Virus record (IMG/VR): IMGVR_UViG_3300036863_000086
Location: 1 to 64,000 of that record
Reading direction: 5' to 3' (one strand)
Source: a virus
Length of the DNA stretch: 64,000 bases
Below the pieces are notes generated by a model. That model worked only from the letters and a program-made list of their open reading frames with translations, had not been told where the DNA came from and did not search any database. Position 1 is the first letter of the stretch; every line of letters begins with the position of its first letter. Positions 51,639 to 63,397 of the stretch are shown piece by piece. The translations under genes and the position numbers were made by a program.

Positions 51639-51653
51639 GACAAGGAGGATGGC

Positions 51654-51764
51654 ATGGACATGTTTCCCAAACTGCTTCACATGCTCGTGACGGTCGGGTC
51701 GGGCGGATGGCTCACTCTGACCGTGTGGGGCGAGTACGCCAGACTGTGGATCTCGGCTAGGTAG
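51654..51764 (+). CDS. 36-aa hydrophobic peptide
   Basis: ATG 51654 with AAGGAGG upstream. KLLHMLVTVGSGGWLTLTVW is hydrophobic enough for one membrane helix. Could be a toxin-like or membrane-anchoring peptide; no homology recognised. Confidence 0.45.
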   Translation: MDMFPKLLHMLVTVGSGGWLTLTVWGEYARLWISAR

Positions 51765-51770
51765 GACAAG

Positions 51771-51839
51771 GCGCCTATACCGGGCAGGCCGGGCAGGCCG
51801 GGCAGGCCGGGCAGAGGGTTCGATCCCCTCGATAGGCAC
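51771..51839 (+). pseudogene. tRNA-like remnant with 9-nt repeats in place of D and anticodon arms
   Basis: GCGCCTAT (51771-51778) pairs with ATAGGCAC (51832-51839) at 7 of 8 positions, and GAGGG-TTCGATC-CCCTC (51814-51830) is a perfect T arm. Between them, instead of D and anticodon arms, nearly four copies of CCGGGCAGG occur. Either a decayed tRNA expanded by slippage or a tRNA-derived site (for example an attachment site). Confidence 0.5.
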
Positions 51840-51848
51840 GAGCAGGAC

Positions 51849-51869
51849 CGCGACGGCCGACCCGTCGCG
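51849..51869. repeat. Stem-loop copy 1 of a repeated hairpin
   Basis: CGCGACGG and CCGTCGCG pair (8 bp) around loop CCGAC. The core GCGACGGCCGRCCCGTCGC recurs at 52471-52490, so the RHH operon is bracketed by two copies. Confidence 0.55.
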
Positions 51870-51890
51870 GAGTCGGACAAGGAGGTCGAA

Positions 51891-52028
51891 GTGGACAGTA
51901 TCGACAGGGAGGTCATTCGGCGCAGGAAGGCCAGGCGTGCCAAGCTGGCCAAGCGTGTCGAACGCACCATGCAGACCAAGCGGCCCAGAGGACGCGGAAG
52001 CGATTTCGCGGACTTCCTGAGGAAGTAG
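51891..52028 (+). CDS. 45-aa highly basic protein
   Basis: GTG 51891 with AAGGAGG upstream. Arg/Lys-rich (RRRKARRAKLAKRVERT), probably nucleic-acid binding. Six bases before the RHH gene, so co-transcribed. Confidence 0.5.
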   Translation: MDSIDREVIRRRKARRAKLAKRVERTMQTKRPRGRGSDFADFLRK

Positions 52029-52034
52029 GACATA

Positions 52035-52415
52035 ATGGCCAAGTCAGCTTTCGAGGACGCAATGGGCGCAACGGAAAAAGCGTACGCTCACCTCGTTGCG
52101 CCCAAGCGCCCCAAGGGTACCCCTCTTCGCAATATCCGCATCTCGGACGAGCTCTGGGCGGCGGCCGGGAAAGTGGCCAAAGCGACCGATCAGGACATAT
52201 CGAGCATGATCCGCGGACTGCTCGTCGAGTACATCGGGGAGTTCGAGGACGAAGAGGAGCTACGTCGTAACCTCGCCGAAACGGTCGAGATGATCGAGAT
52301 CGCCAAGCCGGACGAAGAGGTCGAGCCCGACGAGCGAGTCAAAGCGTGGAGAATCCGCCAAGCCGACTTTGACGCTAAGCTCCGCGAAGAGGCCAAACTG
52401 GCCAAGCGTCGCTAA
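52035..52415 (+). CDS. Ribbon-helix-helix DNA-binding protein
   Basis: 126 residues. LRNIRISDELWAAAGKVAKA and DISSMIRGLLVEYI form an RHH (MetJ/Arc) fold: short strand, two helices. The C-terminal half is an acidic then basic helix. Likely a repressor of its own module or a plasmid-like partition/regulatory protein. Ends at a strong terminator. Confidence 0.75.
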   Translation: MAKSAFEDAMGATEKAYAHLVAPKRPKGTPLRNIRISDELWAAAGKVAKATDQDISSMIRGLLVEYIGEFEDEEELRRNLAETVEMIEIAKPDEEVEPDERVKAWRIRQADFDAKLREEAKLAKRR

Positions 52416-52426
52416 CCTCCCAGATC

Positions 52427-52457
52427 GGAAAAAGCCCCTCCCGAGGGGGCTTTTTCC
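52427..52457 (+). terminator. Rho-independent terminator (bidirectional)
   Basis: GGAAAAAGCCCCTC pairs with GAGGGGGCTTTTTCC (one bulged G) and is followed by CTTTTTG. It closes the RHH operon; in the opposite direction it could stop the HTH gene. Confidence 0.85.
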
Positions 52458-52467
52458 TTTTTGTCCA

Positions 52468-52494
52468 TCTTGCGACGGCCGGCCCGTCGCAAGA
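52468..52494. repeat. Stem-loop copy 2 of the repeated hairpin
   Basis: TCTTGCGACGG and CCGTCGCAAGA form a perfect 11-bp stem with loop CCGGC; the core matches the hairpin at 51849. No T-run follows. Confidence 0.6.
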
Positions 52495-52506
52495 CCGGAT
52501 TGTCCG

Positions 52507-52965
52507 TTACGAGAGCTGATCGTGGTGTGTCTCGTATGGGCAGCTCGAGTCTTGTATGCAGTCTGTTCCTCTTGGGCAACATACGCCGTTTCGGCAACAT
52601 AGCTTGTCTCGGATACTTGCGCGGTATACACGCTCTCGTGCTGATATGTCTGATAACTTCACAATATCGTATGTGGAGAGATCGTACCAAAGGTTCAACC
52701 AGCGCTCTCTGCGCCACTTGCTCTCATTGCCTGGATGACGAAACTTTTCAGGTTCGTGCGTATCTTCCGCTAAGTTCGCATCGCGCAGCCAATCAGAAAA
52801 GACTATATAGTGCCATTTCTGAGGGCTGCTACGTTTGCTAGGATTGGGAAACATACCCCTTCTGCGCCAGTCTCGGAGGGTATAGTCGCTTATGCAAAGA
52901 GCGTCGCATATGTCATCAATTGTGAGGAATGTGTTGCCAACGCGCTCTGGCTCTTTTGCGAACAT
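52507..52965 (-). CDS. HTH (MerR/excisionase-like) DNA-binding protein
   Basis: 152 residues. TFLTIDDICDALCISDYTLRD then WRRRGMFPNPSKR is a winged HTH like MerR or phage Xis/AlpA proteins. The C-terminus is unusual: CCRNGVCCPRGTDC and SSCPYETHH supply seven Cys. It is the only leftward gene in the right arm and faces a large AT-rich region with paired repeats just upstream, suggesting autoregulation. Confidence 0.65.
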   Translation of the reverse strand: MFAKEPERVGNTFLTIDDICDALCISDYTLRDWRRRGMFPNPSKRSSPQKWHYIVFSDWLRDANLAEDTHEPEKFRHPGNESKWRRERWLNLWYDLSTYDIVKLSDISARERVYRASIRDKLCCRNGVCCPRGTDCIQDSSCPYETHHDQLS

Positions 52966-52989
52966 TCTGGCCGTTCCTCTCTATGAAGA

Positions 52990-53028
52990 TTAGACGATGA
53001 GAGCGCACTTTAGACGATTACCGCTCTC
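52990..53028. promoter_or_regulatory. Operator-like repeats upstream of the HTH gene
   Basis: TTAGACGAT occurs at 52990-52998 and 53010-53018, exactly 20 bp apart (same helical face). GAGAGCG (52999-53005) and CGCTCTC (53022-53028) are also inverted repeats. They lie 25-63 bp before the leftward ATG. Confidence 0.5.
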
Positions 53029-53029
53029 T

Positions 53030-53428
53030 GACAGTCTACCATAGGTTCGGCGGTTCGGTTGTTTGTGATGGGCCTGTTAACAACACGTATTATAACTGGT
53101 TTAGAACTACAACTACTACTTTACCACCTATAATATGCCCTGTACTATATATATACTAATAGTATAGTATAGTAGTATAGGTACATAATTGAGTAGAATA
53201 TTGGTCAGAACATGCCATTCGCGGAAAATAAAGGACACTCATATGCTCGTATCGGCATATTGGCTTGTCAAAGGCTTGTCAAAGTGTATGCACTTGCAGA
53301 AGACGCCATGACTGGTCACAGCAGGCCATATGTGGTCACCCGTCTCCCTATTGCCACTCATCACTGTCATTAGTTGACATGAGCGGTCAATTTTCGTCAA
53401 GACGCACCTTAGATCACATATGTCTGAA
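53030..53428. other. AT-rich gene-free control region
   Basis: About 400 bases with no supported gene. 53100-53190 is very AT rich with TATA-like runs (TATATATATACTAATAG, TAGTATAGTAGTATAGG); 53262-53283 is a tandem copy of GGCTTGTCAAA; CATATG occurs several times. It separates leftward and rightward genes and could hold promoters or an origin. No defined origin motif was found. Confidence 0.4.
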
Positions 53429-53442
53429 TAGACCCGTTGCGC

Positions 53443-53800
53443 TCTGAGCGCCAGCTCTGGGACAATGGACTCTCCGGGCGGAGTATGCCCGGAGCGGTCC
53501 TTTGAGAACTACAGAGCGAGCGAGACCGGCTCTCCCGAGGGTTCCCTTGGGGAGCTGGGCGACCACCAGTCCCTTTCAGGGGAGCAGGAGGCCGAGACCA
53601 TCCGGGGAAGAGTGCATCCCTGGCAGGCCCAGCACGACCGTCAACGACGGATCAGGGAACCGCCAGGACACGCCGGAGCCGAAAGTTTCGCGGCATGTCG
53701 GATCACGCGCCTGGATTTTCCGACCAGGGAATGCCGACCATGCGACAGGGTTTCGATTAGGTTTCTCGCTCGCAACGTTCATTGAGAACTAAATAGACGA
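53443..53800 (+). ncRNA. Structured leader with boxA-like motifs
   Basis: No credible gene. Stem-loops: CTCCGGGC/GCCCGGAG (53472-53494), CGGTC/GACCG around the first motif, CCGTC-AAC-GACGG near 53640, and a long stem GCATGTCGG/CCGACCATGC with inner CCTGG/CCAGG (about 53692-53752). CCTTTGAGAACT (53499-53510) and CATTGAGAACT (53780-53790) resemble the boxA antitermination/processing motif of actinobacterial rRNA leaders and spacers. Interpreted as the leader of the right early transcript. Confidence 0.5.
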
Positions 53801-54218
53801 GAAAAGAGTAGCCGGAGAAATTGGCTTTGTGGTTTGCGCTTGATGAATACGTCGCGCAAACAGAAATCGGAATCAGTTTGTAGTTCTCGGAATTCTGGAC
53901 AAAGCTAAAAGTACCCTTGAGTTTGAGGCAAAAGCGCGAGCGTAGTGAAAACTTTAAAAGACCGAATTGCGATGATGTTCCTTAGCTGATTGATGTTGTG
54001 AGTCTCAGCGAAAGATTGAAATAGGGAATGAGCGAGGGTTGTCTGCGCGAAGACCGTTCGAGAGTCAATGACGTGCAATTCGTCATTGCTAGCGCAGTAG
54101 GAATAACCCTACTGTGGCATAGGCCACGATAAACTGACAAAGGCTACTCGCCACGTTTCAATAAGCCAAAGCTACAGCCGATTCACAATAGGCCGTAAAA
54201 CTAGGCGAAAGTGGAAAT
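53801..54218 (+). ncRNA. Gene-free segment with several stem-loops
   Basis: About 420 bases without a supported gene. Hairpins: GTTTGCGC/GCGCAAAC (near 53835-53864), AATGACG/CGTCATT (54068-54088), AGTAGG/CCCTACT near 54098, GTGGC/GCCAC near 54115. GAGTAGCC (53807) could pair with GGCTACTC (54143) to close the segment. Could be a large structured RNA; GOLLD- or ROOL-type giant RNAs were considered but no specific match can be claimed. Confidence 0.35.
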
Positions 54219-54738
54219 GCACATAGGCGCGTATTGACTGGCCATTTCGAGCAGTGAAAACCAAAGCATCAATTACTTATGGTAATGGTGCAAAGCTCGA
54301 AAAAAGAAAAGAGAAACCGAAATGGCTGTTGAGATCAGGTACACGGACGACGAGGGCAACCTGCTGTTCACCACGCGGGACATGACTGTGGTGGAGAACT
54401 TCCAGAAGGCCGAGAAGAAGGTCGCGGCGCTGGCGGAGGCCGAGAAGATCCTGGCGCGGCGTGAGCGCCTGGTCAGGGAAGCGCTCGACACGCTGGCCAA
54501 GCTGCGGAAGGACGTCACCGAGGGCCTGCCGGACGGCGCGCGGGTTGCCAAGTCTGGCGACACCTACGCGATCACGTTCGAGCCGGAGGACAGCGCCAGC
54601 GCGCCGAGCGAGAACGGCGCGGCCAGCTAGAACGCCGAGATCGGCGACAACTTCATACCGGGCGGCCGGCCCCAGCACCACGTAACACCGTAGCAACCGC
54701 AACAAAGCGAAATGGCCAGCCAATTCGCGCCTATGTGC
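54219..54738. repeat. Inverted-repeat cassette 1
   Basis: Arms 54219-54249 and 54708-54738, 29 of 31 bases complementary. They bracket the single gene at 54322. Confidence 0.85.
54322..54630 (+). CDS. Coiled-coil hypothetical protein
   Basis: 102 residues; AAAGAGAAACC upstream is a weak ribosome site. EIRYTDDEGNLLFTTRD is a short beta hairpin, then a charged helix (KILARRERLVREALDTLAKL) and an Ala/Ser-rich tail. Not recognised. High third-position G+C compared with the late genes. Enclosed by cassette 1. Confidence 0.55.
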   Translation: MAVEIRYTDDEGNLLFTTRDMTVVENFQKAEKKVAALAEAEKILARRERLVREALDTLAKLRKDVTEGLPDGARVAKSGDTYAITFEPEDSASAPSENGAAS

Positions 54739-54782
54739 AAAGTACGCGAGTTTTTGAAACGTGGATACATGCTTCCTAAGCA

Positions 54783-54824
54783 GGAAAAGCGATTTTGCCG
54801 CGCAAGCGGCTTTTTTGCTTTTCC
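54783..54824 (+). terminator. Terminator-like stem-loop between cassettes 1 and 2
   Basis: GCCGC-GCAA-GCGGC (54797-54810) followed by TTTTTT, with an outer stem GGAAAAGC/GCTTTTCC (54783-54790 and 54817-54824). The outer stem makes it resemble a miniature of the neighbouring inverted repeats; the T-run makes a terminator more likely. Confidence 0.65.
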
Positions 54825-54903
54825 AAGGGAAAGCAGGGAATTGAGAGTTTCTCGCGTCCACTCCAACAAAAAACAACTCCAATTGGTAAGTGGAGTGATC
54901 CAG

Positions 54904-55080
54904 ATGCGAAAAACCCTGTCCGACCTGTTTCTGTGGGCTGGTTGGACACTGGCCGATAAGGCCAGCCCAACAGAAACTCCAGCTTCCATGGACTACAGGG
55001 AAATGCTGCCGTTGTCCGAGCGGCATTTCTACGTCCAGCCGGTCGGGTTCCAGCCAAGCAAAAAGCGGGTGTCGGCATGA
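54904..55080 (+). CDS. Small hypothetical protein (58 aa)
   Basis: ATG 54904, with GGAG nine bases upstream. The open frame further upstream is spacer and repeat arm. SDLFLWAGWTLADKA may be an amphipathic or membrane helix. ATGA overlap with the next gene. Confidence 0.5.
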   Translation: MRKTLSDLFLWAGWTLADKASPTETPASMDYREMLPLSERHFYVQPVGFQPSKKRVSA

Positions 55081-55295
55081 GACTCGCGGTTGCTGTGGTT
55101 GTGGTCGGTTGGTTGCTCGTGTTCGGCGCGATCGCGCTGCACACGGACTGGTCGGAAACGTCGGCTCCAGCAACGCCAACGTACGTCGTCCAGAACAACG
55201 AGGTCCAGACTCCTGTGGGAATGTGCCGAACGGAAGATTCCTGTTCGGTCGATTTCCACGGTGGTCAGTACACGATCCGGCAGGTGACGCCATGA
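55077..55295 (+). CDS. Small membrane-anchored protein
   Basis: 72 residues. LAVAVVVVGWLLVFGAIALH is an N-terminal signal anchor, then an extracytoplasmic domain with two Cys (MCRTEDSCSVDF) that could form a disulfide. ATGA overlaps on both sides. Unknown function at the host envelope. Confidence 0.6.
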   Translation: MRLAVAVVVVGWLLVFGAIALHTDWSETSAPATPTYVVQNNEVQTPVGMCRTEDSCSVDFHGGQYTIRQVTP

Positions 55296-55390
55296 CGCCG
55301 GAACAGCAGATTTTCGGGATTTACCTGATCCTGGTGATCGTGATACTCCAGCGGAAACTCTGGCATGACTTTGGCAAGCACGACACCTAG
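55292..55390 (+). CDS. 32-aa single-helix membrane peptide
   Basis: ATG 55292 overlaps the previous stop. IFGIYLILVIVILQRKLW is one membrane helix with a positive flank. Probably works with the gene before. Confidence 0.5.
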   Translation: MTPEQQIFGIYLILVIVILQRKLWHDFGKHDT

Positions 55391-55506
55391 AGAGACCAAC
55401 AACGTGAGGAACTTTCAATTCCCTGCTTTCCCACGCTTGGGAGCATGTTTTGGCGAGTCATTTCCAACCTCTGGAAGAAATTCCAGGGAAAAAAGGAAGT
55501 GACAAG

Positions 55507-55962
55507 ATGAAAGCCAAGTGGTTTTACGACGTGGAGGTCGTGACCAATGGTGCTGTTTCGTCGCACCAGACGTTCACCTCCGACTGCTTCGACGGGGAAA
55601 CAGACCCGATGGCGGAATTCATCGCGGACGTGGAACACTTCACGAGCGGGTCCAGCAAGCCAACGGAGGTTTTCGTCCAGTTCCACGAGCACGAGCCGTT
55701 TTCCGATGGCGAGGATGTCTGTGGTCAGTTTGAAACGGACGGGCACCCGACCTATTCGTGGAACATGGAAAACGACGTTTCCAAGGTTCCGCAGAAGGTT
55801 CATGTGGTCGACTGGACTGGCGAGGATTTCCCGCATGGCGAGGAATGGTCGCCAGGGTTCGCGCCGTACGTGTTTCGCTGGACGTTCGATGACGACGCGG
55901 ACGTGGGGTTTCCGTGGTTTCCGCCGTCCATGACGTTTCGGTGGGATCGGCGCCATGACTGA
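55507..55962 (+). CDS. Acidic hypothetical protein
   Basis: 151 residues from ATG 55507. Strongly acidic and aromatic (FHEHEPFSDGEDVCG, FDDDADVGFPWFPPS). The high Asp/Glu content could mimic DNA, but this is speculation. Overlaps the next gene. Confidence 0.55.
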   Translation: MKAKWFYDVEVVTNGAVSSHQTFTSDCFDGETDPMAEFIADVEHFTSGSSKPTEVFVQFHEHEPFSDGEDVCGQFETDGHPTYSWNMENDVSKVPQKVHVVDWTGEDFPHGEEWSPGFAPYVFRWTFDDDADVGFPWFPPSMTFRWDRRHD

Positions 55963-56137
55963 ACTTTCCACCAACCTGGAAACCGGCGAAACCTACAAAG
56001 CGAGGTTTCGGCGTCCTGATGGCGAGCTGGAAACGAAAGAATTCTCCGGCGCCGATTGGGATGCGTGCTGGAAGATGGCTGTTGACCATGCAGCCGCTTC
56101 GAACAGCAAACTCCAGATGTTCAAGATCCAGAAGTAA
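55955..56137 (+). CDS. Small hypothetical protein (60 aa)
   Basis: Starts inside the end of the previous gene. Short beta strands then a helix (YKARFRRPDGELETKEF, DWDACWKMAVDHA). Unrecognised; coupled translation likely. Confidence 0.5.
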   Translation: MTELSTNLETGETYKARFRRPDGELETKEFSGADWDACWKMAVDHAAASNSKLQMFKIQK

Positions 56138-56187
56138 CGACGACGGTAACGATGCGAAATGACCCGCCAAAACATGCTCTCAAGTTT

Positions 56188-56676
56188 GCTTGGAAGCCTC
56201 TTGAATGAGCTGCTGCGCGAAATTCCAAGAAGGAGAACGACATGGGAATTTCCGCAAGGATGATGCCCGACGTGTTTTCCGAGAACGGGAAAACCTACCA
56301 CGAGCACCTTGTTTCGGTGCATGCGAGCGAGCGGTCCAACTACGAAATCCGGTGTTCTTGTGGGCACTTGGGTTTCGTCGCGTCGGTGTCCGACGTGTTC
56401 GCGGCAAACTGCGCCCTTGACCACGTCAAGGAAATGCAGCCGGACTCCGGCTATCAGGAAGCCGTTCGATCTGCTGTAACCGAGTATCACGCCAGGAAAG
56501 ACTTCGAGCAGGACTTTTCGGAGAAGATGATCCTCCTGAACAGAGGACTCCACCCCTGCAAGAAAGTTGCAGATGGCCAGCACTATTTTTCGGTGGTGAC
56601 TGGCATCTGCCACGCCTGCGGCGCGCTGGAGAAGTAACTCCAAACGCGCAGTAACTCATTCATGAGGGTTCCAAGC
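56188..56676. repeat. Inverted-repeat cassette 4
   Basis: Arms 56188-56219 and 56645-56676, 28 of 32 complementary. Left arm begins nine bases after the right arm of cassette 3. Brackets one gene. Confidence 0.85.
56242..56637 (+). CDS. Zinc-binding hypothetical protein
   Basis: 131 residues; AAGGAG upstream of ATG 56242. CSCG and a C-terminal CHAC provide two Cys pairs that may bind zinc in separate N- and C-terminal parts. Sole gene of cassette 4. Confidence 0.55.
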   Translation: MGISARMMPDVFSENGKTYHEHLVSVHASERSNYEIRCSCGHLGFVASVSDVFAANCALDHVKEMQPDSGYQEAVRSAVTEYHARKDFEQDFSEKMILLNRGLHPCKKVADGQHYFSVVTGICHACGALEK

Positions 56677-56691
56677 GTTGCTTAGGAAGCT

Positions 56692-56961
56692 GTAGAAAGC
56701 TGGAAATGAGGGTTTCTCGCTCCAACTGGTAACGATGCAAAGGAATGCATGATGGCCGAGAACCCTGAGAACCCCAAGGATGGTTTGGCGTCGATTGTCG
56801 ACGTGAAGAACTTCTTCGAGTACGAGAACATCTCGAAGTTCCGCGCCGACTGGCAGAAGTTGTCCGACGTTGACAAGGTGCAGCTCCGGCTGGGCATCGG
56901 CGAGGGTACCCTGACCTACTGAGTTTTTCCACGCGAGGAACCTTCATTTCCAGCTTTCTAC
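56692..56961. repeat. Inverted-repeat cassette 5
   Basis: Arms 56692-56720 and 56933-56961, 27 of 29 complementary. Brackets one 56-codon gene. Confidence 0.85.
56752..56922 (+). CDS. Small hypothetical protein (56 aa)
   Basis: ATG 56752 with AAAGGA seven bases upstream (an ATG at 56749 is alternative). Pro/Asn-rich start then a helical part (VKNFFEYENISKFRADWQKL). The reading frame fills the space between the repeat arms, which supports it. Confidence 0.55.
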   Translation: MAENPENPKDGLASIVDVKNFFEYENISKFRADWQKLSDVDKVQLRLGIGEGTLTY

Positions 56962-56962
56962 T

Positions 56963-58537
56963 GCTCAAGTAGCAAGTTAACGGGATTGTCAGTGTGCGGG
57001 ATACATGCATTGGTTGGCTCCTCCACGAACAACGAACAACGAGGAGAACAGCCAATGGCAAACCTACTATTTCCCCGCAGCAAGCCTCCGTCATTTTCTC
57101 GTGCCAACCCAACCACGATGGACCTCGAAAGGATCATCGAAGAAATCGCGGACGATCCTTTCCAGATGGACACCGGCATGCGGATCATGATGAAGCGGAA
57201 GAAGGAGTTCAACAACGAGCTGGCCGCAAAACTGACCGGGATCGCGCTCAACCCCGTTTCCAAGGCGTACCTGGAAAACCGCCTCGACGATATCTGGTCC
57301 GCGTCGTCAGGGAGGATCGTCCTTGGCAATGCCGGAACCACGACCATGCCGGAAGTCATCATCGGCAGCGGTTTCCACGCTGCCGTGTACGCCGCGATCC
57401 GGGTCCAGGCGGGATTTCCCAAGCCATTCGTGCTCGAACGAGGAAAGCGCGCTGGCGGCGTGTTTGCCGTTCCTGGGCCAGCGTTCTTCCTGAATTCGCG
57501 GAACCGCCCAGGCGGAATCGGGCTGGCAGGAGATTCCGGCGCAAACCCAAACTACCTGCCCGGCGCACCGATCCAGACCGCGAACATCTCCAGCGGCGAC
57601 TACCAGACCAACGCGGACATGGCGCTCGTGATCCGGCTGACACTCGCCAAGTACGCGAACGTGCTCACGGAGTTTCCTGTCAGCGAAGTCGATTACTTCG
57701 CCGAGCGATACACACTCCTTTCGACAGGTGGTCGGAAACTCCAAGCGTCTCGAATCATCGACGCGCGCGGACTCGGCGACCCGCTCGGCAAGACCACGGC
57801 GAACGGAACAACCATCCTGACGTTTCCGCAGTTCATGGAAAGGATGGGCAGCGAAACCTGGCCGCTGCGGGATATTCGTCGTGCGGCAGTGCTCGGCAGC
57901 GGCGATGCTGCGCGGTGTTCGCTGGAAGCGTTGCTCGGAATTGGTCCACTTCCGGCAATGTCCATTCCTGCGCTCGACATGGTCGATCGGGTCGACGCCT
58001 ACGGGGAACTTCCCGACACGATGGAATCATGGTGCGACCGGGAACGTGGCCGGTACAACAAAATCGGCCGATTCCTCCGGCCGGATCGGTTCGGCATCAA
58101 GCGGTTGAACGTGTACGCGGATGGCGAGCGGCCGTCGCCAGTTTCCATCCCGAACGAAACGGTGCTGGTGAACGGCCGCAGCTACGACCTCGTCATTCTC
58201 GCAACCGGAAATCGTGAGGAGTCCGTTCCCGGCCTGGGAACGTCCAGCGACTTCGAACGCTACAACGTTAGCGACGTTGCAGTCGCCACGCGGAGTTACT
58301 ACTCCGGTGGCGACCTTTTCCGAGTTGGACCGCACGCGCGGCTCGGGTTTTCTCGGCTGGAGCGGAATGCCGGCGTCGCGGAAATCCCCAACAACGCGGT
58401 CTCGATGTTCCGGCTGGCCAGCAAAACCGCCACGCTCGCAGCAACACTTCCCGGCATCTGAATCACTACCGGGTAACTGGTGCCAGCCAATGCTTGCATC
58501 CTTCACAACGACAGTCCCGTTTACTTGCTACTTGAGC
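56963..58537. repeat. Inverted-repeat cassette 6 (59-bp arms)
   Basis: Arms 56963-57021 and 58479-58537, about 50 of 59 complementary, the longest in the series. Left arm starts one base after cassette 5; right arm ends where cassette 7 begins. Brackets the flavoprotein gene. Confidence 0.85.
57055..58461 (+). CDS. FAD/NAD(P)-binding oxidoreductase-like protein
   Basis: 468 residues from ATG 57055 (GAGGAG eight bases upstream). VIIGSGFHAAVYAAIRVQAG with a downstream Glu (FVLERGKRAGGVFA) is an FAD-type Rossmann motif; AAVLGSGDAARCSLEALLG is a second nucleotide-binding motif; YDLVILATGNREES is the ATG motif of two-dinucleotide-binding flavoproteins. The N-terminal 85 residues are a helical extension. 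Substrate unknown; a large metabolic-type enzyme is unusual among these small early genes. Confidence 0.75.
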   Translation: MANLLFPRSKPPSFSRANPTTMDLERIIEEIADDPFQMDTGMRIMMKRKKEFNNELAAKLTGIALNPVSKAYLENRLDDIWSASSGRIVLGNAGTTTMPEVIIGSGFHAAVYAAIRVQAGFPKPFVLERGKRAGGVFAVPGPAFFLNSRNRPGGIGLAGDSGANPNYLPGAPIQTANISSGDYQTNADMALVIRLTLAKYANVLTEFPVSEVDYFAERYTLLSTGGRKLQASRIIDARGLGDPLGKTTANGTTILTFPQFMERMGSETWPLRDIRRAAVLGSGDAARCSLEALLGIGPLPAMSIPALDMVDRVDAYGELPDTMESWCDRERGRYNKIGRFLRPDRFGIKRLNVYADGERPSPVSIPNETVLVNGRSYDLVILATGNREESVPGLGTSSDFERYNVSDVAVATRSYYSGGDLFRVGPHARLGFSRLERNAGVAEIPNNAVSMFRLASKTATLAATLPGI

Positions 58538-58676
58538 GCTGGACTTTTCAGATGGACCACAGAACAACGCGATATGTGCTGCGCTCTGCGTTTGAGGAAC
58601 GTCAAGGTTGGAGCAACCATAAAAGACACTCCACTTGCCAAGGTTCCCGTTCTGTGGTCCTTTTGAGAAGTCCAGC
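58538..58676 (+). ncRNA. Inverted-repeat cassette 7 (non-coding, putative structured RNA)
   Basis: Arms 58538-58564 and 58650-58676, 24 of 27 complementary, enclosing 85 bases with no credible gene but a small hairpin GGTT-GGAGC-AACC. A transcript would be a long stem with a structured head. Confidence 0.6.
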
Positions 58677-58740
58677 TTGTTGTTTGGCGTTTGAAAGTGG
58701 ATTGTTTCGTCCGATGGTAAGAACAACAAAGGATGGAACA

Positions 58741-58941
58741 ATGAGCGAGTACCAGCGAAAGATTTCGGTCGATGACCTGCATGTCGGGACGTTCGTGAAA
58801 GTGCGCGACAACTTCGGCGGCTTGTGGTCGGCGGAAGTCATCGGATTCACCAGGAACGGAACGATCGAGTTCATCGTTTCTGGTGACGACAAGGTTCGTC
58901 GTGGCACGCTGACCACGATTGCAGAAATCGTGCAGCCATGA
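58741..58941 (+). CDS. Small SH3-like/KOW-like protein
   Basis: 66 residues; AAAGGA upstream of ATG 58741. VDDLHVGTFVKVRDNFGGLW then VIGFTRNGTIEF looks like a small beta barrel. Function unknown. ATGA overlap with the next gene. Confidence 0.55.
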   Translation: MSEYQRKISVDDLHVGTFVKVRDNFGGLWSAEVIGFTRNGTIEFIVSGDDKVRRGTLTTIAEIVQP

Positions 58942-59180
58942 CCACCATGCTGCATCGTAGGGTCGCTATGCAGAGCGTAGCGATCAAGGCGATGTTTTCC
59001 AAGGCCGAGATGCTCGAACTTCCACGGCGCGCGTTACTGGCGATGTTGAACGAGAACCTTCCGCTCGTTGATCCGAGCGATAGCAAGAAAGTTCGACTCG
59101 CTCGGATCGCCACCATTCAGGATCGAGTGAACCTCGCGCGATACCGCGCTGGCCTGAAAAGGTGGGAGCAACCACGATGA
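58938..59180 (+). CDS. Helical protein, tandem paralogue A
   Basis: 80 residues. MFSKAEMLELPRRALLAMLN is shared with the next gene (MFSKAEIFELNRRELLALLN), as is a C-terminal LARYxAxxK segment. A tandem duplication of an unknown helical protein. ATG overlaps on both ends. Confidence 0.6.
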   Translation: MTTMLHRRVAMQSVAIKAMFSKAEMLELPRRALLAMLNENLPLVDPSDSKKVRLARIATIQDRVNLARYRAGLKRWEQPR

Positions 59181-59425
59181 TGCTCGTCGAAGAATTCCTC
59201 AAGTTGCTCGACGAGAAGATCGCCGAGCAGGACGTGAAGATTTTTTGGATGTTTTCCAAGGCCGAGATTTTCGAGCTGAATCGGCGTGAGCTGCTGGCGC
59301 TGTTGAACGAAAACGATCCAAAAGCGGAAGTCCAGGCTGTCCTGCAAGATCGGCTGGATGACGTGGCCGGCCGGGCGGATCTCGCGCGATATCTCGCCGA
59401 GCGAAAAGAAGCTGGTGCGGCATGA
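59177..59425 (+). CDS. Helical protein, tandem paralogue B
   Basis: 82 residues from ATG 59177, overlapping the previous stop. Extra N-terminal helix (VEEFLKLLDEKIAEQDVKI) before the shared MFSKAE core. Probably interacts with or diversified from paralogue A. Confidence 0.6.
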   Translation: MMLVEEFLKLLDEKIAEQDVKIFWMFSKAEIFELNRRELLALLNENDPKAEVQAVLQDRLDDVAGRADLARYLAERKEAGAA

Positions 59426-59487
59426 TGCTGCCAGTCGCAGTCATCAAGGAAATCGAGTCCACCTACGCACTGCTCTGGGCTGACTGA
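59422..59487 (+). CDS. 21-aa mini-ORF
   Basis: ATG overlaps the previous stop; TGA at 59485-59487 lies just before the right arm of cassette 8. Supported only by coupling and position. Confidence 0.3.
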   Translation: MMLPVAVIKEIESTYALLWAD

Positions 59488-59578
59488 ATCAACCTCGAAA
59501 CAATCCACTTCCACGCGCCAAACAACAATCCAAAAGTATGTTGGCGGGTTTTTCCATGTCTGGTAAGGGAAGTGCGAC

Positions 59579-60061
59579 ATGGAGTTTCGCAAGGGTCCAA
59601 CACTGGACGAATTCTGTGAAATCGTCCAGAAGATTTCCGACGAGCGCTACGACAGCAACGTGATCGTCGGCGACTCGGAAACACTGTCCAAGAACGGAAC
59701 AACCTTCCGGGCGACGTTGCGCGTCAAGGATTCCAAGAAATTCGGCGCGAGAACATCATCGCGCGGCCGGCACACGCCAGCGGCAAGCTGGGAAGCGTTC
59801 CGCGATGTTCTCCGCGAGGTGTTCGACCGCTGGCCGAACACCTACGTTTCTTCGATGCTCGTGTTCATGCTGGGACTGTACGATCCCTGCGAGCATCGCA
59901 AGGCGAGCGGCGAACCGTATCGGCGCCACAAGGAACGGCATCGCCGGCGCGGCTACAACGGAAAAGCACAATTCGAGGAAATGTACCCTGAGACGGCCGC
60001 CGTCAATTGGGGTTCCCAGATATATTGGGCATGCCTCCCTGATCTTTCCATCGAGCGGTGA
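59579..60061 (+). CDS. Hypothetical protein (160 aa)
   Basis: Beta strands in the first half (NGTTFRATLRVKDSKKFGA), then a helix (WEAFRDVLREVFDRWP), and a basic Arg/His-rich stretch (YRRHKERHRRRGYNG) that may bind nucleic acid. Not recognised. Sits with the next gene in cassette 9. Confidence 0.55.
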   Translation: MEFRKGPTLDEFCEIVQKISDERYDSNVIVGDSETLSKNGTTFRATLRVKDSKKFGARTSSRGRHTPAASWEAFRDVLREVFDRWPNTYVSSMLVFMLGLYDPCEHRKASGEPYRRHKERHRRRGYNGKAQFEEMYPETAAVNWGSQIYWACLPDLSIER

Positions 60062-60065
60062 CACG

Positions 60066-60398
60066 ATGCCGGCTATCGTGACCACAGTGAGGGAAATCCC
60101 AACCGCGCCGTACTACGTTCTATCCAACGACAGATTCATGAGCGGTTGGGGCCGGGCGCATACATCGGGCGCGTTTGGAAATCCGTATCCCGACAGAGGG
60201 GCGTTGACCAACACCATCATCCTGCCGTGCGAAAACTGGACGGAAGCGCTGATTGTCAAGGAAAACGCCGAACGTCGTACCGATCAGACGAGAGTTCGGA
60301 TCGTCGTGAACAAACCGCGACTCCGTTCTGAGCACGTCTATTCGCTCCTGACAAGACTAACCGCAGAGTGGTGGTTCCAGCCGGGGGCGTTCAAGTAA
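60066..60398 (+). CDS. Hypothetical protein (110 aa)
   Basis: ATG 60066, four bases after the previous stop. The centre (YVLSNDRFMSGWGRAHTSG) suggests a mixed alpha/beta fold. No family recognised. Ends five bases before the right repeat arm. Confidence 0.55.
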   Translation: MPAIVTTVREIPTAPYYVLSNDRFMSGWGRAHTSGAFGNPYPDRGALTNTIILPCENWTEALIVKENAERRTDQTRVRIVVNKPRLRSEHVYSLLTRLTAEWWFQPGAFK

Positions 60399-60442
60399 CC
60401 AACGAAAAACCCGCCAACTTACTTTTGGAAGATCCGAGTATC

Positions 60443-60637
60443 GTGCAATTAATTGGGAACAGTAACGGCGAGAATCACGATAGCTGAGAGCCCGTAAAAG
60501 GGAATATACCAATATCGTGATTAGGGCACGATCGCCCTGGGCCGGTCGGTTCAATCCGGCTGGATCGCAACCAAACAGCGGAAGAACAGAGCCAGCTTAA
60601 CCGCTGGCATCCGGTTACTGTTCCCAATTGATTGTAC
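60443..60637 (+). ncRNA. Inverted-repeat cassette 10 (non-coding, putative structured RNA)
   Basis: Arms 60443-60466 and 60614-60637, 22 of 24 complementary. The 147-base interior has no gene but stacks of hairpins: AATCACGATA/TATCGTGATT, GGGC/GCCC, GCCGG/CCGGC and GCCAGC/GCTGGC. Confidence 0.65.
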
Positions 60638-60649
60638 GACAAATTAGAA

Positions 60650-60749
60650 TTGAGATAGGGAACGCACCCGGACGGCATAACCCTGCTAGGTTTGCTAAGG
60701 GTCCGCCGTAGCAGCGGAAACGGGATATAGAGGGACCGCCCTATCTCAA
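60650..60749 (+). ncRNA. Cassette 11: putative structured RNA
   Basis: Perfect 11-bp terminal stem (TTGAGATAGGG/CCCTATCTCAA) enclosing 78 bases with an inner ACCCT/AGGGT stem. No coding potential. Confidence 0.55.
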
Positions 60750-60865
60750 AACCACGCGCCTAGCTGCAAAACGGCCTCGGGCCGGATCTGGTTCTCAGCG
60801 TGGGTTCTAGGGAAGCACGAATAGGAGCTGGTAATAAGGCTTCCCAGCTAACTTTCGCAGGATCT
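60750..60865. other. Spacer with a short hairpin
   Basis: No gene. GGGAAGC and GCTTCCC (near 60810-60845) can pair around 22 bases, another small stem between cassettes 11 and 12. Confidence 0.35.
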
Positions 60866-60947
60866 AAGGACCACAGGGATGCAGGTCTACAACCGCATTT
60901 CGACAAAACCCAAATGGTGAGGTTTCGTCGTTATCCCTGTGGTCCTT
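60866..60947 (+). ncRNA. Cassette 12: putative structured RNA
   Basis: Perfect 15-bp terminal stem (AAGGACCACAGGGAT and complement at 60933-60947); inside, CGACAAAACC pairs with GGTTTCGTCG (9 of 10). Only 52 bases between the arms. Confidence 0.6.
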
Positions 60948-60983
60948 TGATTCTACGACGAGACAACGAACAAGGGTAAACAG

Positions 60984-61196
60984 ATGGATTTCTACCCGAT
61001 TTGGGGAGAACGGCTTTATGAGTCGTCCGATGGACGATACCGGCTTTCCAGAGATTCTCATGGGCGCTGGTGGATTCTCCGCGTCCGGCAGTTCAACTCC
61101 GGTCCAAAGACGATGCTGGTTCCCTATTCGTTCCGAACGCTCGATAACGCAATCGAAGCGTTCGATGATGGAACCGTCAAAATTTGGGAACGATGA
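60984..61196 (+). CDS. Small hypothetical protein (70 aa)
   Basis: Trp/Tyr/Arg-rich beta protein (YRLSRDSHGRWWILRVRQF). Weak ribosome site AAGGG 12 bases upstream. Ends eight bases before tRNA-Arg. Confidence 0.55.
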   Translation: MDFYPIWGERLYESSDGRYRLSRDSHGRWWILRVRQFNSGPKTMLVPYSFRTLDNAIEAFDDGTVKIWER

Positions 61197-61203
61197 CTCT
61201 GCG

Positions 61204-61275
61204 GCGCCTGTACCTTAATGGAAAGAGGGATAGTTTCCTAAACTATTTGTGCAGGTTCGATTCCTGCCAGGCGCG
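61204..61275 (+). tRNA. tRNA-Arg (anticodon CCT)
   Basis: 72 nt; acceptor GCGCCTG/CAGGCGC, anticodon stem ATAGT/ACTAT with loop TTCCTAA, T arm GCAGG/CCTGC around TTCGATT. Reads AGG codons. Confidence 0.9.
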
Positions 61276-61276
61276 C

Positions 61277-61419
61277 AAGAAACTTGGGCTAGCCGCGTAC
61301 TCCACTACGGTAATGGGAGAGCTATACGAAAGTGCCCGGCAACCTGAAAGCGCCTTACGGTGTATCCACCTTACGGTGCATCCATGTCGACGCCGGTAAG
61401 CCTTCCGCCCAAGTTTCTT
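61277..61419 (+). ncRNA. Cassette 13: putative structured RNA between tRNAs
   Basis: A perfect 13-bp terminal stem (AAGAAACTTGGGC with 61407-61419) encloses 117 bases with no gene, including a repeated CCTTACGGTG..TCCA element (two copies about 20 bases apart). It fills the space between tRNA-Arg and tRNA-His. Confidence 0.6.
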
Positions 61420-61425
61420 TTTCAT

Positions 61426-61500
61426 GGCGAGAGTAGCTTAATTAGGTAAAGCGCTTGCTTGTGGCGCAAGTTATTGCCGGTTCAAATCCGGTCTCTCGCC
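61426..61500 (+). tRNA. tRNA-His (anticodon GTG)
   Basis: 75 nt including the extra 5' G(-1) that pairs with C73, a hallmark of tRNA-His. Acceptor GCGAGAG/CTCTCGC, anticodon stem CTTGC/GCAAG, loop TTGTGGC, T arm around TTCAAAT. Confidence 0.92.
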
Positions 61501-61504
61501 CCAA

Positions 61505-61582
61505 TGGTCGGTAGCTTAATTCACTCGGCAAAGCAGCGGTCTCCAAAACCGCGAGATGGGGGTTCGAGTCCCTTCCGACCAG
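61505..61582 (+). tRNA. tRNA-Trp (anticodon CCA)
   Basis: Acceptor TGGTCGG/CCGACCA, anticodon stem GCGGT/ACCGC, loop CTCCAAA, T loop TTCGAGT. U1-A72 is unusual but paired. Confidence 0.9.
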
Positions 61583-61586
61583 CTAC

Positions 61587-61661
61587 GGCGTGGTAGCTCA
61601 GTTTGGTTAGAGTGCTGCCCTGTCAAGGCAGAGGTCGCGGGTCCAAATCCCGTCCACGCCG
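61587..61661 (+). tRNA. tRNA-Asp (anticodon GTC)
   Basis: Acceptor GGCGTGG/CCACGCC, anticodon stem CTGCC/GGCAG, loop CTGTCAA, T loop TCCAAAT, discriminator G typical of tRNA-Asp. Confidence 0.93.
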
Positions 61662-61684
61662 CAATTGTGGGGAAAGGACAATCA

Positions 61685-61876
61685 GTGTCAAAGCTAAAAG
61701 TTACTGTAACTGGAATTCTAGATGTTCCAGAAGATCAGCTAGAACCGGCATACGAAGCATCCTCAATCCAAGAAGCCGCCAAAAACTTAGTCGCCTGGTA
61801 TAAAGATGGCTCAGCAGACCTTTTTGCTGACCTATCCGTGGTGGATGAGTTGAAGGTAACTGTCGAGCCGGTATAA
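61685..61876 (+). CDS. Small hypothetical protein (63 aa)
   Basis: GTG 61685 with AAAGGA seven bases upstream; upstream in-frame codons are tRNA sequence. Acidic beta-alpha protein (KVTVTGILDVPEDQLEPAYE). Embedded in the tRNA cluster. Confidence 0.55.
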   Translation: MSKLKVTVTGILDVPEDQLEPAYEASSIQEAAKNLVAWYKDGSADLFADLSVVDELKVTVEPV

Positions 61877-61878
61877 TT

Positions 61879-61975
61879 CGGAGTTGCCAGACCCGAGTCT
61901 CCATACCTGCGTACGAGGATTTCTGGAGATAAGCCGAAAACCTAAAGCGCTACGGGAAAGTAGGCATCTGGCACC
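61879..61975 (+). ncRNA. Putative three-way-junction RNA in tRNA cluster
   Basis: TGCCAGA (61885-61891) pairs with TCTGGCA (61967-61973); inside, TCTCCA/TGGAGA encloses CCT/AGG, and GCTAC/GTAGGC forms a third helix. Junction strands are purine rich (GATAAGCCGAAAACC). Not a tRNA; no known riboswitch or ribozyme could be matched with confidence. Confidence 0.5.
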
Positions 61976-61977
61976 AA

Positions 61978-62051
61978 GCGCCATTCTGCTAAACGGATGA
62001 GGCTACCACTCTCTCACGGTGGAGGTAGGAGTTCGAATCTCCTATGGCGCG
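61978..62051 (+). tRNA. tRNA-Glu (anticodon CTC)
   Basis: Acceptor GCGCCAT/ATGGCGC, anticodon stem CCACT/GGTGG, loop CTCTCAC, T arm AGGAG/CTCCT around TTCGAAT. Discriminator G. Confidence 0.85.
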
Positions 62052-62082
62052 CGAAATTGTTGGACTGGAAGGAAGTTGAACA

Positions 62083-62214
62083 ATGGATAAGATAGTGCAA
62101 ATCGAGATCGAATATGACGACGGCAGTACGGCTTTCTGGACAATCAAGGAAGACGACGAACGGCTGGCAAAAGTCGAGGAAATCCTCGGAACGCCAGATC
62201 AGCAGAATCTCTAG
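62083..62214 (+). CDS. Small acidic protein (43 aa)
   Basis: ATG 62083 with AAGGAAG upstream; ends six bases before the next tRNA. Begins VQIEIEYDDGSTAFW. No family. Confidence 0.5.
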   Translation: MDKIVQIEIEYDDGSTAFWTIKEDDERLAKVEEILGTPDQQNL

Positions 62215-62219
62215 CAACA

Positions 62220-62294
62220 TGCGCGGTTCGGCTAATGGTTTAGGCTATCAGACTTTCAATCTGATGATGCGGGTTCGAATCCCGTACTGCGCAC
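62220..62294 (+). tRNA. tRNA-Glu (anticodon TTC)
   Basis: Acceptor TGCGCGG/CTGCGCA (one G.U), anticodon stem TCAGA/TCTGA, loop CTTTCAA, T arm CGGG/CCCG around TTCGAAT. With the CTC tRNA both Glu codons are covered. Confidence 0.85.
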
Positions 62295-62296
62295 AA

Positions 62297-62389
62297 TGGG
62301 GCCGGACGACCGGATAAGCATAGGAACGAGCGCGCTAAAGTTTTGGGTCGGTTGGGCGCGAACGTGAGATCGTCATTCCTATCGCCCCA
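62297..62389 (+). ncRNA. Putative structured RNA after tRNA-Glu
   Basis: TGGGGC/GCCCCA (62297-62302, 62384-62389) and ATAGGAACGA/TCATTCCTAT (62320-62329, 62373-62382) stack as a long interrupted stem with an inner GCGC/GCGC. No gene. Confidence 0.45.
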
Positions 62390-62650
62390 GATTTTTGCTG
62401 AGAACACAGGCCCGCCGGGTACGCGCAACGCCAGTGTGGTTCAACGGTTGCATTCTGGAACGATGGACGTGGTTAGGGACCGACATCGTGCCGATTGGTC
62501 GCGTACTGCGCCCCCTTTACGGAAACTTCTAGATCCATATCCGCGCGGATTTAGAAAGTCCATGAAGGACCGAGCCTTATCATGGGAGGGTTAAATCGAG
62601 ATGGCGGCATAACTCCCTCCCACCCTTTTCGGAAACCCAAGGATAGCGAA
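62390..62650. other. Gene-free segment, content unclear
   Basis: No supported gene. A D-arm-like GTTCAACGGTTGCATTC near 62439 suggests tRNA ancestry but no anticodon or T arm could be fitted. Otherwise nothing seen. Confidence 0.3.
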
Positions 62651-62926
62651 GTGCAGATCATGTTTCACTACATGGATAAGCGACGGAACCACGAAATCGC
62701 CGACGCTCCATGGCGAAAGTTGGACTTCGTTCCCAACAACATGCTGCGCGATCTTGACCATTGGCACGATGCAGAAACATTTCCATTCTACGACCCGGAC
62801 CTAGATGCCAGAGACATCGCCGACGTGCCACATGGTCATTGGATCGCGCACAAGCACGGCAGATACCAAGAACACGCGCATTACGTTCTCTGCACGGAAG
62901 ACCATGAAAGTGAAGGAGCTAAATGA
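62651..62926 (+). CDS. His/Asp-rich hypothetical protein (91 aa)
   Basis: GTG 62651 has AAGGA eight bases upstream; ATG 62660 is an alternative. Rich in His, Asp and Trp (LDHWHDAETFPFYDPD, GHWIAHKHGRYQEHAHY), which might bind metal. ATGA overlap with the next mini-gene. Confidence 0.5.
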   Translation: MQIMFHYMDKRRNHEIADAPWRKLDFVPNNMLRDLDHWHDAETFPFYDPDLDARDIADVPHGHWIAHKHGRYQEHAHYVLCTEDHESEGAK

Positions 62927-62985
62927 ATTACGATCCGTACGATGACGACGAGCCAATTGACAGCGGCGACGAAGTTGGTCCATAG
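62923..62985 (+). CDS. 20-aa acidic peptide
   Basis: ATGA-coupled mini-ORF (MNYDPYDDDEP). Supported only by coupling. Confidence 0.3.
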   Translation: MNYDPYDDDEPIDSGDEVGP

Positions 62986-63014
62986 CCATCACGAAAGTTT
63001 TTAAAAGGTGAGTG

Positions 63015-63320
63015 ATGGCGACTGTTCGAATCAGCGAAAAGGATCTCCGAGATCCAAGATTCAAGCGCCTGCGAAACATGGTCAAAGAAGCAGGCGGGCT
63101 TGATGATGAGAATGACGAGGTTGTCGACAAGGAAGAATTTGGCGATCGACTTGTCCCACGAGAACTGACACTTTCGGAGCGCATCGAAAGCATTACGTTT
63201 GTGAAGCAATTCTCGGGCTACAGCAAAGAGCAAGTTGATGCGTTTCTCGATGATGTCGGTCGGCACGTCGAAAAGATGGAAAAAGAAATCCGTCGGCTTC
63301 GTCGGCGACTCGGAAGGTAA
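63015..63320 (+). CDS. Helical hypothetical protein (101 aa)
   Basis: ATG 63015 with AAAAGGTG upstream. Two helical parts; the C-terminus VEKMEKEIRRLRRRLGR is a basic coiled coil. LTLSERIESITFVKQFSG may be a compact helical domain. Function unknown. Confidence 0.55.
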   Translation: MATVRISEKDLRDPRFKRLRNMVKEAGGLDDENDEVVDKEEFGDRLVPRELTLSERIESITFVKQFSGYSKEQVDAFLDDVGRHVEKMEKEIRRLRRRLGR

Positions 63321-63325
63321 CAAAA

Positions 63326-63397
63326 CCGGGTGTCATTCAACGGTTAGGATCTCTGCCTTCCAAGCAGATGATGCGGGTTCGATTCCCGTCACCCGGT
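63326..63397 (+). tRNA. tRNA-Gly (anticodon TCC)
   Basis: Acceptor CCGGGTG/CACCCGG, anticodon stem TCTGC/GCAGA, loop CTTCCAA, T arm around TTCGATT. Reads GGA/GGG. Confidence 0.92.

Follow-up and report, generated by a model that had tools for sequence, protein, structure and literature searches.

A chain of gene cassettes in uncultured bacterial viruses, each bracketed by its own RNA stem and possibly expressed as closed-loop messages

The DNA stretch analyzed here (positions 1 to 64,000 of the IMG/VR record IMGVR_UViG_3300036863_000086; hereafter the window, 64 kb in full) comes from an uncultured bacterial virus and carries a row of small genes, each gene group being enclosed by a pair of long complementary arms (Table 1). 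A scan of the whole window for inverted repeats (8-nt seed, score at least 17, distance up to 3 kb) finds exactly 11 pairs, all within 54218–60958, and nothing else, while five first-order Markov shuffles give none. The arms are 26–59 nt long and 83–96% complementary. Most of the pairs lie back to back, the end of a right arm and the start of the next left arm being 55432/55436, 56184/56188, 56676/56688, 56965/56963 (a 3-nt overlap), 58537/58538, 58676/58677, 59528/59529 and 60429/60441. Arms of different cassettes are unrelated: within the window, own arms pair at 0.91 of positions and swapped arms at 0.41. The ORFs assigned to the window cassettes all lie on one strand, as do the best-matching orthologs compared in relatives.

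Table 1. Stems, ORFs and associated elements of the cassette chain (positions in the window).
Feature	Position	Strand	Remarks
Stem 1, 5′ arm	54218..54249	+	94% complementary to 54708–54739
Cassette 1 ORF	54322..54630	+	102 aa; no confident Pfam or PHROG match
Stem 1, 3′ arm	54708..54739	+	
Terminator-like hairpin plus T run	54797..54820	+	Hairpin 54797–54810; between cassettes 1 and 2; consensus match, number of such sites in the region is at chance level
Stem 2, 5′ arm	54827..54857	+	90% complementary to 55402–55432; the three departures are G.U
Cassette 2 ORF	55077..55295	+	72 aa; further short ORFs lie in this cassette
Stem 2, 3′ arm	55402..55432	+	
Stem 3, 5′ arm	55436..55464	+	93% complementary to 56156–56184
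Cassette 3 ORF a	55507..55962	+	151 aa
Cassette 3 ORF b	55955..56137	+	60 aa
Stem 3, 3′ arm	56156..56184	+	
Stem 4, 5′ arm	56188..56219	+	88% complementary to 56645–56676
Cassette 4 ORF	56242..56637	+	131 aa
Stem 4, 3′ arm	56645..56676	+	
Stem 5, 5′ arm	56688..56720	+	91% complementary to 56933–56965
Cassette 5 ORF	56749..56922	+	57 aa
Stem 5, 3′ arm	56933..56965	+	
Stem 6, 5′ arm	56963..57021	+	59 nt; 83% complementary to 58479–58537; inner end can also pair with the SD/start region of the cassette 6 gene (read from the sequence)
Cassette 6 ORF	57055..58461	+	468 aa; weak NAD(P)-binding Rossmann-like match only (below cut-off)
Stem 6, 3′ arm	58479..58537	+	
Stem 7, 5′ arm	58538..58565	+	89% complementary to 58649–58676; unit without an ORF, 83-nt loop
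Stem 7, 3′ arm	58649..58676	+	
Stem 8, 5′ arm	58677..58709	+	91% complementary to 59496–59528
Cassette 8 ORF a	58741..58941	+	66 aa
Cassette 8 ORF b	58938..59180	+	80 aa
Cassette 8 ORF c	59162..59425	+	87 aa; by eye similar to ORF b (shared MFSKAE)
Stem 8, 3′ arm	59496..59528	+	
Stem 9, 5′ arm	59529..59554	+	96% complementary to 60404–60429
Cassette 9 ORF a	59579..60061	+	160 aa
Cassette 9 ORF b	60066..60398	+	110 aa
Stem 9, 3′ arm	60404..60429	+	
Stem 10, 5′ arm	60441..60466	+	92% complementary to 60614–60639; unit without an ORF, 147-nt loop
Stem 10, 3′ arm	60614..60639	+	
Stem 11, 5′ arm	60855..60880	+	88% complementary to 60933–60958; unit without an ORF, 52-nt loop
Stem 11, 3′ arm	60933..60958	+	

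These data confirm an earlier note, made from the sequence alone, which described ten consecutive pairs with arms of 24–59 bp and 85–97% complementarity; all ten exist within a few bases of the places given there. However, some details required correction. The note missed the eleventh pair; cassettes 1 and 2 are not back to back but 87 nt apart, with the terminator-like hairpin between them; and three of the eleven units enclose no ORF. The claim that complementarity is kept by paired changes cannot be seen in one genome, but is confirmed in relatives, as shown below.

Among 10 cassette proteins searched against Pfam nothing scored above cut-off, and among 10 compared with PHROG only one weak match (E = 0.003, transcriptional regulator) was obtained. 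No direct relatives of two window cassette proteins, including the 468-aa protein of cassette 6, were found among viral contigs, and the 468-aa protein had none among phages either. Rfam searches detected only tRNAs in window positions 50000–64000 and in six relative loci.

Relatives found through the terminase show the same architecture, whereas the window DNA polymerase used as a query found no relative among viral contigs. Chains were identified in 9 of the 80 records recovered in this way, many of these records being partial, and further ones were found; in 2.19 Mb of the window plus related loci, shuffles give 0 chains of 3 or more. Among isolates, the nearest terminases are under 40% identical, and Arthrobacter phage Wollypog, read in two stretches, has no chain. 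A single scan of genome contigs for the host gave 5 loci (an UASB270 assembly, a SAR202 MAG fragment, a Planctomycetota MAG and two distant ones), none of which showed a chain. A cassette protein of one related record (G001; G and L numbers are our labels for records and loci) found only its own record.

We analyzed 143 stems in 18 phage records, with a median arm of 30 nt and the two arms lying a median 288 nt apart (range 35 to 1463 nt). This set leaves out duplicate loci of the same records and one locus (L211) bearing the same chain as L225; stems with gapped arms are missed, and a few short palindromes (for example in G032 and L190) are included. Outside a central motif, non-Watson–Crick pairs on the coding strand are G.U in 145 cases versus A.C in 41 (p = 8e-15), with G.U more frequent in 17 of the 18 records (none of either in G023), a bias which a DNA-only function does not predict. 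A strand-biased C-to-T mutation pressure could raise G.U somewhat, but the centre shows the opposite bias.

Comparison of 15 ortholog pairs revealed 244 unchanged stem positions, 102 changed on both sides and still paired, 8 changed on one side and still paired, and 6 broken. These pairs were limited to those where both stems have the central core described below and protein identity is at least 50%; they share stems and are not independent, and pairs without the core (for example G016 15125/L192 14379, 82% identical) were considered separately. Unconstrained RNA folding of 54188–60988 returns all 11 stems of the window; overall, unconstrained folding on the gene strand recovered 11/11, 11/11, 11/11 and 8/8 stems. 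Antisense folding also returns most stems, so folding alone does not tell the strand; the G.U test does.

Notably, a two-fold symmetric mismatch core lies at mid-stem, in which two non-canonical pairs flank exactly 2 bp. It is usually 5′-CNNA facing 5′-CNNA (C.A, two base pairs, A.C), or a U.U version of it, with about 14–15 bp on each side and the core centre mostly 13–17 nt from either end. The core is present in 71 of 143 stems against 5.7 expected (sd 2.3, max 16 in 2000 shuffles); of 82 stems with exactly two such pairs, 60 have this spacing. The order C.A..A.C was observed in 52 of 76 and the reversed order in 1. However, 72 of 143 stems lack the strict core, and the window itself has it in only 1 of 11, the central mismatch there being mostly a single U.U.

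Genes sit at near-fixed distances from their stems, with the start about 25 nt after the 5′ arm and the stop about 11 nt before the 3′ arm. The stop codon lies within 20 nt of the 3′ arm in 103 of 131 cassettes with an ORF, and the start lies 22–27 nt after the 5′ arm in 53 and 18–45 nt in 94. Start codons were chosen as the first ATG at least 8 nt inside the arm, which favours short leaders, although stop distances are free of that choice. Only one sigma-70-like match occurs in 53500–61200, fewer than in shuffles, in line with one transcript; the terminator-like hairpin between cassettes 1 and 2 speaks against this.

Taken together, complementarity, covariation and the G.U bias show that the chain is an RNA architecture, in which a long coding-strand transcript folds into a row of independent long-range stems of about 30 bp, one private stem closing each gene cassette. 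This supports the proposal of the earlier note that a transcript would form a row of closed loops, like the RNase III stems around rRNAs. Two bp is the stagger of an RNase III-type cut, and we infer, without transcript or RNA-end data, that the core marks the site where a dimeric RNase III-family enzyme, probably of the unidentified host, makes a staggered double cut. Each cassette would then be released as a short mRNA whose ends are zipped by the inner half-stem of about 15 bp, out of reach of 5′-end-dependent endonucleases and 3′ exonucleases. The start and stop codons sit just inside the stem, at distances that leave room for initiating and terminating ribosomes, so the loop could be translated while closed. 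Arms of different cassettes must stay different so that each arm finds its own partner, which would explain why in four of five ortholog comparisons they diverge faster than the genes while staying paired; in the remaining one the arms are better conserved than the interior. We assign this reading a probability of about 0.58.

No RNase III, dsRNA-binding domain or RNA ligase was detected in the phages. RNase III domains (PF00636 and PF14622) were found in 0 of 12 records, and the dsRNA-binding domain dsrm (PF00035), RtcB (PF01139) and RNA_ligase (PF09414) in 0 of 13, although several records are fragments; the enzyme must therefore be the host's or unrecognised. A precedent for a 4-nt core in a dsRNA-specific RNase III relative is Mini-III (MrnC), which cleaves at ACC^U (PMC4357697), but the core here is a mismatched CNNA/CNNA. 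In phage T7, RNase III sites such as R1.1 divide a polycistronic early RNA into messages, and 12 bp per half-site suffices (PMC8708148); however, T7 uses local hairpins between genes, not stems joining the two ends of each gene. Internal loops can also turn an RNase III double cut into a single-strand cut, as in T7 R1.1 (PMC8708148), so the mismatches could equally limit cutting.

The latter possibility underlies an alternative that we consider unlikely, namely that the stems are static. They would insulate neighbouring genes and protect the messages or circularise them by pairing, with the central mismatches breaking the helix into two runs of about 14 bp and so evading host RNase III. Consistently, the longest uninterrupted helix has a median of 14 and only 16 of 143 stems reach 20, and no phage dsRNA nuclease was found. 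However, this does not explain the fixed 2-bp spacing, the fixed orientation or the central placement of the core, as randomly placed mismatches would break the helix as well.

A less probable alternative, which could coexist with the main reading, is a completion switch: the inner end of the 5′ arm would mask the Shine-Dalgarno until the whole gene is transcribed and the 3′ arm takes the 5′ arm away. Over 99 cassettes with a usable SD, the SD is unpaired 0.43 with the 5′ arm free and 0.59 with the arm withheld (p = 1.5e-7), and arm–leader pairing is 7.5 bp versus 4.7 with shuffled arms (p = 2e-7). Nevertheless, withholding any 30 nt frees some downstream bases, the SD difference against shuffled arms is small (0.43 vs 0.49, p = 0.004), and no gain was seen in G001, L225, G023 or window cassettes 4, 5 and 6 (0.50 vs 0.51 for cassette 6).

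A DNA-level role, with the repeats as ends of mobile or invertible cassettes or as recombination sites, is very unlikely. The layout is cassette-like, and homologous genes occur in different positions and with different arms in different phages, although the large connected group of 21 proteins in that comparison is not one clean family. However, besides the strand bias, compensated changes and start and stop geometry, the arms are private to each cassette rather than shared by a recombinase (swapped arms 0.47 vs own 0.91), and no window cassette was seen inverted, albeit without a search for a recombinase gene nearby. The private arms also do not fit transposon or MITE terminal repeats, which share one terminal sequence, nor integron cassettes, expected to carry one attC-type hairpin site on one side with shared core sites. 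Quasi-palindrome correction by template switching during replication, which may also yield two-sided changes, is the least likely, since it would erase the conserved central mismatches, would not make G.U exceed A.C, and would have to act on arms a median 288 nt apart.

Other known systems resemble the chain in part. RNase III stems around 16S and 23S rRNA likewise probably close a long RNA segment that is freed by cutting, but here up to 11–13 stems per locus close mRNAs, each arm pair is private and fast evolving, and the stem has a two-fold symmetric mismatch core. In Staphylococcus aureus the 5′-UTR and 3′-UTR of icaR pair and RNase III can act on the duplex (PMC3868564); there pairing blocks the SD and lowers expression of one gene, while here the stem lies outside the SD and recurs for every gene in a chain. 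The start-associated and extended start-associated sequences of cluster K mycobacteriophages appear to be shared repeats upstream of genes, whereas here each gene has its own pair bracketing both ends. Archaeal bulge-helix-bulge processing, which probably requires two 3-nt bulges separated by a 4-bp helix, does not match a core of two 1x1 mismatches separated by 2 bp. In agreement with the earlier note, no described phage system of this kind was found in an open-access literature library, which is not proof of absence.

Bacterial and phage messages are normally thought of as linear RNAs with open ends. Here a family of phages appears to give every gene in a block its own closing stem, covarying across relatives and placed at near-constant distance from the start and stop codons, which raises the question of how pairs of arms diverge together so fast while staying private. 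It is possible, though somewhat less likely than not, that one transcript is diced into individually sealed messages that are translated as loops, with stem closure itself helping to expose the ribosome-binding site. If the core is a cut site, this is a natural dicing and end-sealing system for mRNA, and the core and arms would be a ready design rule for making stable messages from one transcript.

The window is part of a 72,476-base virus record (G000). A mechanical search revealed 11 long inverted-repeat pairs with arms of 26-59 nt, all of them confined to a single region with none elsewhere in the 64 kb, whereas shuffled sequences gave none. Nine of the pairs follow each other with gaps of 3, 3, 11, -3, 0, 0, 0 and 11 nt, while the first pair is set off by 87 nt that hold a terminator-like hairpin. 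Three units hold no ORF. In the window, own arms pair at 0.91 of positions and arms swapped between cassettes at 0.41. The positions of these and other features mentioned in the text are collected in the table.

Positions of the inverted-repeat chains and accompanying features in the window and in related loci (G and L numbers denote virus records and loci retrieved in the searches; L009 overlaps the window and extends beyond it)
Feature	Location	Strand	Remarks
Chain of 11 inverted-repeat pairs	window 54218-60958	+ (ORFs that fit the cassettes)	
Nine consecutive pairs	window 54827-60639		
Terminase gene	window 40205-41650	-	
Arrays of alternating 9-nt motifs	window ~44185-44680, 45620-46280, 47626-49550; L009 14246-16060 (contig about 67.2-69.1 kb)	+ (exact GTGCGAGCC copies in the window)	half-period 18, period 36-37
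RNA-like segments between tRNA genes	L009 8278-8420 (window 61277-61419); L009 12294-12440 (contig 65293-65439)		each closed by a 13-17 bp perfect stem
tRNA-like gene	window 61510-61576		within the tRNA cluster after the chain
Stem-closed units beyond the window	L009 16114-16256 (contig 69113-69255); L009 19136-19256 (contig 72135-72255)		the second encloses a copy of the alternating 9-nt motif
Repeated near-palindromes around TCGGACATGTCCGA	L084 1100-1400 and intergenic regions of relatives		
Chain with arms unlike the CGGACA type	L225 6753-7854 (reverse-complement coordinates)		
Chain with arms unlike the CGGACA type	L053 888-3670		

Apparently non-coding arrays consist of two alternating 9-nt motifs, GTGCGAGCC and GTGAAACCC(A), separated by variable spacers of ~9 nt. 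The window contains 61 exact copies of GTGCGAGCC, none of them on the minus strand, and L009 another 21, while at least 4 copies were found in no other retrieved locus. Two RNA-like segments between tRNA genes share, by eye, a core (GGTAATG..GAGAG, CGAAAG, GCCCGG, CCGGTAAGCC), with no Rfam match beyond tRNAs there. The tRNA-like gene was found by Rfam (36 bits) but missed by ARAGORN.

Close protein relatives of the cassettes were not found, and the cassette proteins are mostly without family; however, the terminase has many relatives in IMG/VR. Scanning them revealed the same kind of chain, with ~30-nt arms, mostly 200-900 nt apart, arranged end to end. Chains of three or more occur in 9 of the 80 records obtained with the terminase (L049, L051, L053, L068, L069, L072, L087, G001 and G018), many of the records being fragments or covered only in part, and in none of the shuffled versions of 2.19 Mb of sequence. 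A search with a cassette protein and a second terminase search added L162, L165, L167, L190, L192 and L225/L211. In the clade of L072 (terminase 76-86% identical), every listed record with at least 5 kb of sequence upstream of the terminase has a chain (L072, G018/L186, G016/L188, G036/L189, L049, L190, L192, L193, L204 and L218, the last bearing the same chain as G018). The chain runs opposite to the terminase in the window, in G001 and in those relatives. All relatives with chains are metagenomic.

To distinguish an RNA-level from a DNA-level role, 143 stems of 18 records were oriented on the strand that carries the cassette genes, the search itself having treated G.U and A.C alike as mismatches. 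Outside the central core described below there are 3877 Watson-Crick pairs, 145 G.U, 41 A.C and 76 others (G.U over A.C, p=8e-15). G.U exceeds A.C in 17 of the 18 records, the remaining one, G023, having two stems and neither type of pair; a DNA-level function would make the two equal. Orthologous cassettes, defined by protein matches, gave 15 comparisons in which both stems have the core: 244 pair positions were unchanged, 102 were changed on both sides and paired, 8 were changed on one side and paired, and 6 were broken. In four of five aligned cassettes the arms are far less alike than the interior (for example, 18/31 and 18/30 in the arms against 236/283), whereas in the fifth (G026 15485 / G036 15515) the arms are more alike than the interior (25/30 and 25/30 against 158/395). 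So arms and genes evolve separately, and the pairing is what is kept. Free-energy folding without constraints returned every stem of the window (11/11), L165 (11/11), G026 (11/11) and G018 (8/8) on the gene strand; the antisense strand returned 11, 11, 9 and 7, respectively, with weaker total energy each time.

Near the middle of the stem, two non-canonical pairs with exactly two base pairs between them are found in 71 of 143 stems, against an expectation of 5.7 when mismatch positions are shuffled inside each stem (sd 2.3, maximum 16 in 2000). Among 82 stems with exactly two non-canonical pairs, 60 have this spacing. In 52 of 76 stems with the motif anywhere, the pairs are C.A then A.C, that is 5'-CNNA-3' in both arms, and the reverse order occurs once; the commonest 5'-arm core is CUAA. 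The core centre lies mostly 13-17 nt from the outer end and 14-16 nt from the inner end. In the window and G001 the centre uses U.U instead (16 of 21 central non-canonical pairs), and only 1 of 11 window stems has the strict two-mismatch form. The CGGACA/TGTCCG letters of the near-palindromes around TCGGACATGTCCGA recur at the inner ends of arms and in gene leaders, but the chains of L225 and L053 have arms of quite different sequence, and of these L053 still has the symmetric core in 4 of 6 stems and L225 in 0 of 3. The two positions of the core are selected not to pair, in a symmetric frame whose inner distance equals the 2-nt stagger typical of RNase III-type cuts. An RNase III relative, Mini-III, can read a 4-nt core (ACC^U; PMC4357697). 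In addition, a 12-bp stem with one set of recognition boxes is stated to be enough for single-strand cleavage by E. coli RNase III, and forcing full pairing in T7 R1.1 to allow double-strand cleavage (PMC8708148).

The genes are placed at near-fixed distances from the stems. Of 131 cassettes with an ORF of 30 aa or more, the stop codon lies within 20 nt of the 3' arm in 103, typically about 11 nt before it; the chosen start codon lies 18-45 nt inside the 5' arm in 94 and 22-27 nt in 53, and the leaders inspected carry AAGGAG-like Shine-Dalgarno sequences. In relatives most cassettes hold one small gene, whereas window cassettes hold one to three. These distances are about what an initiating and a terminating ribosome would be expected to need, suggesting that the stem could stay closed during translation.

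The stems act at the RNA level, are private to each cassette and covary. In the absence of transcription data, we infer that they belong to one long transcript, as the region contains one sigma-70-like match, fewer than in shuffled sequences, although other promoter types are not covered by this analysis. We further infer that each stem folds and is cut at the core by a host RNase III-family enzyme, and that each mRNA survives with its ends zipped by the inner half-stem. The main alternative is that the stems are never cut and the mismatches exist to escape RNase III. Closing of the stem could also free the Shine-Dalgarno sequence, which is unpaired 0.43 with the 5' arm free and 0.59 with it withheld; arm-leader pairing exceeds that of shuffled arms (7.5 vs 4.7 bp), but the effect is moderate and absent in some records. 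Formation of circular RNA by a phage ligase is unlikely, as Pfam models detected no RNase III, dsRNA-binding domain, RtcB or RNA ligase in the phages themselves (0 of 12 or 0 of 13 records), while the controls gave a signal.

The arrangement works like rRNA processing stems and, in purpose, like the processing of T7 early mRNA, but neither has a private end-to-end stem for each gene in a row. The icaR mRNA of S. aureus pairs its two UTRs and meets RNase III (PMC3868564), with translation blocked and for one gene. Rfam has no matching family. Searches of open-access full texts, which did not cover subscription papers and preprints, found no such phage architecture. We regard the architecture as categorically new, and the inferred mechanism as a likely cousin of RNase III processing.
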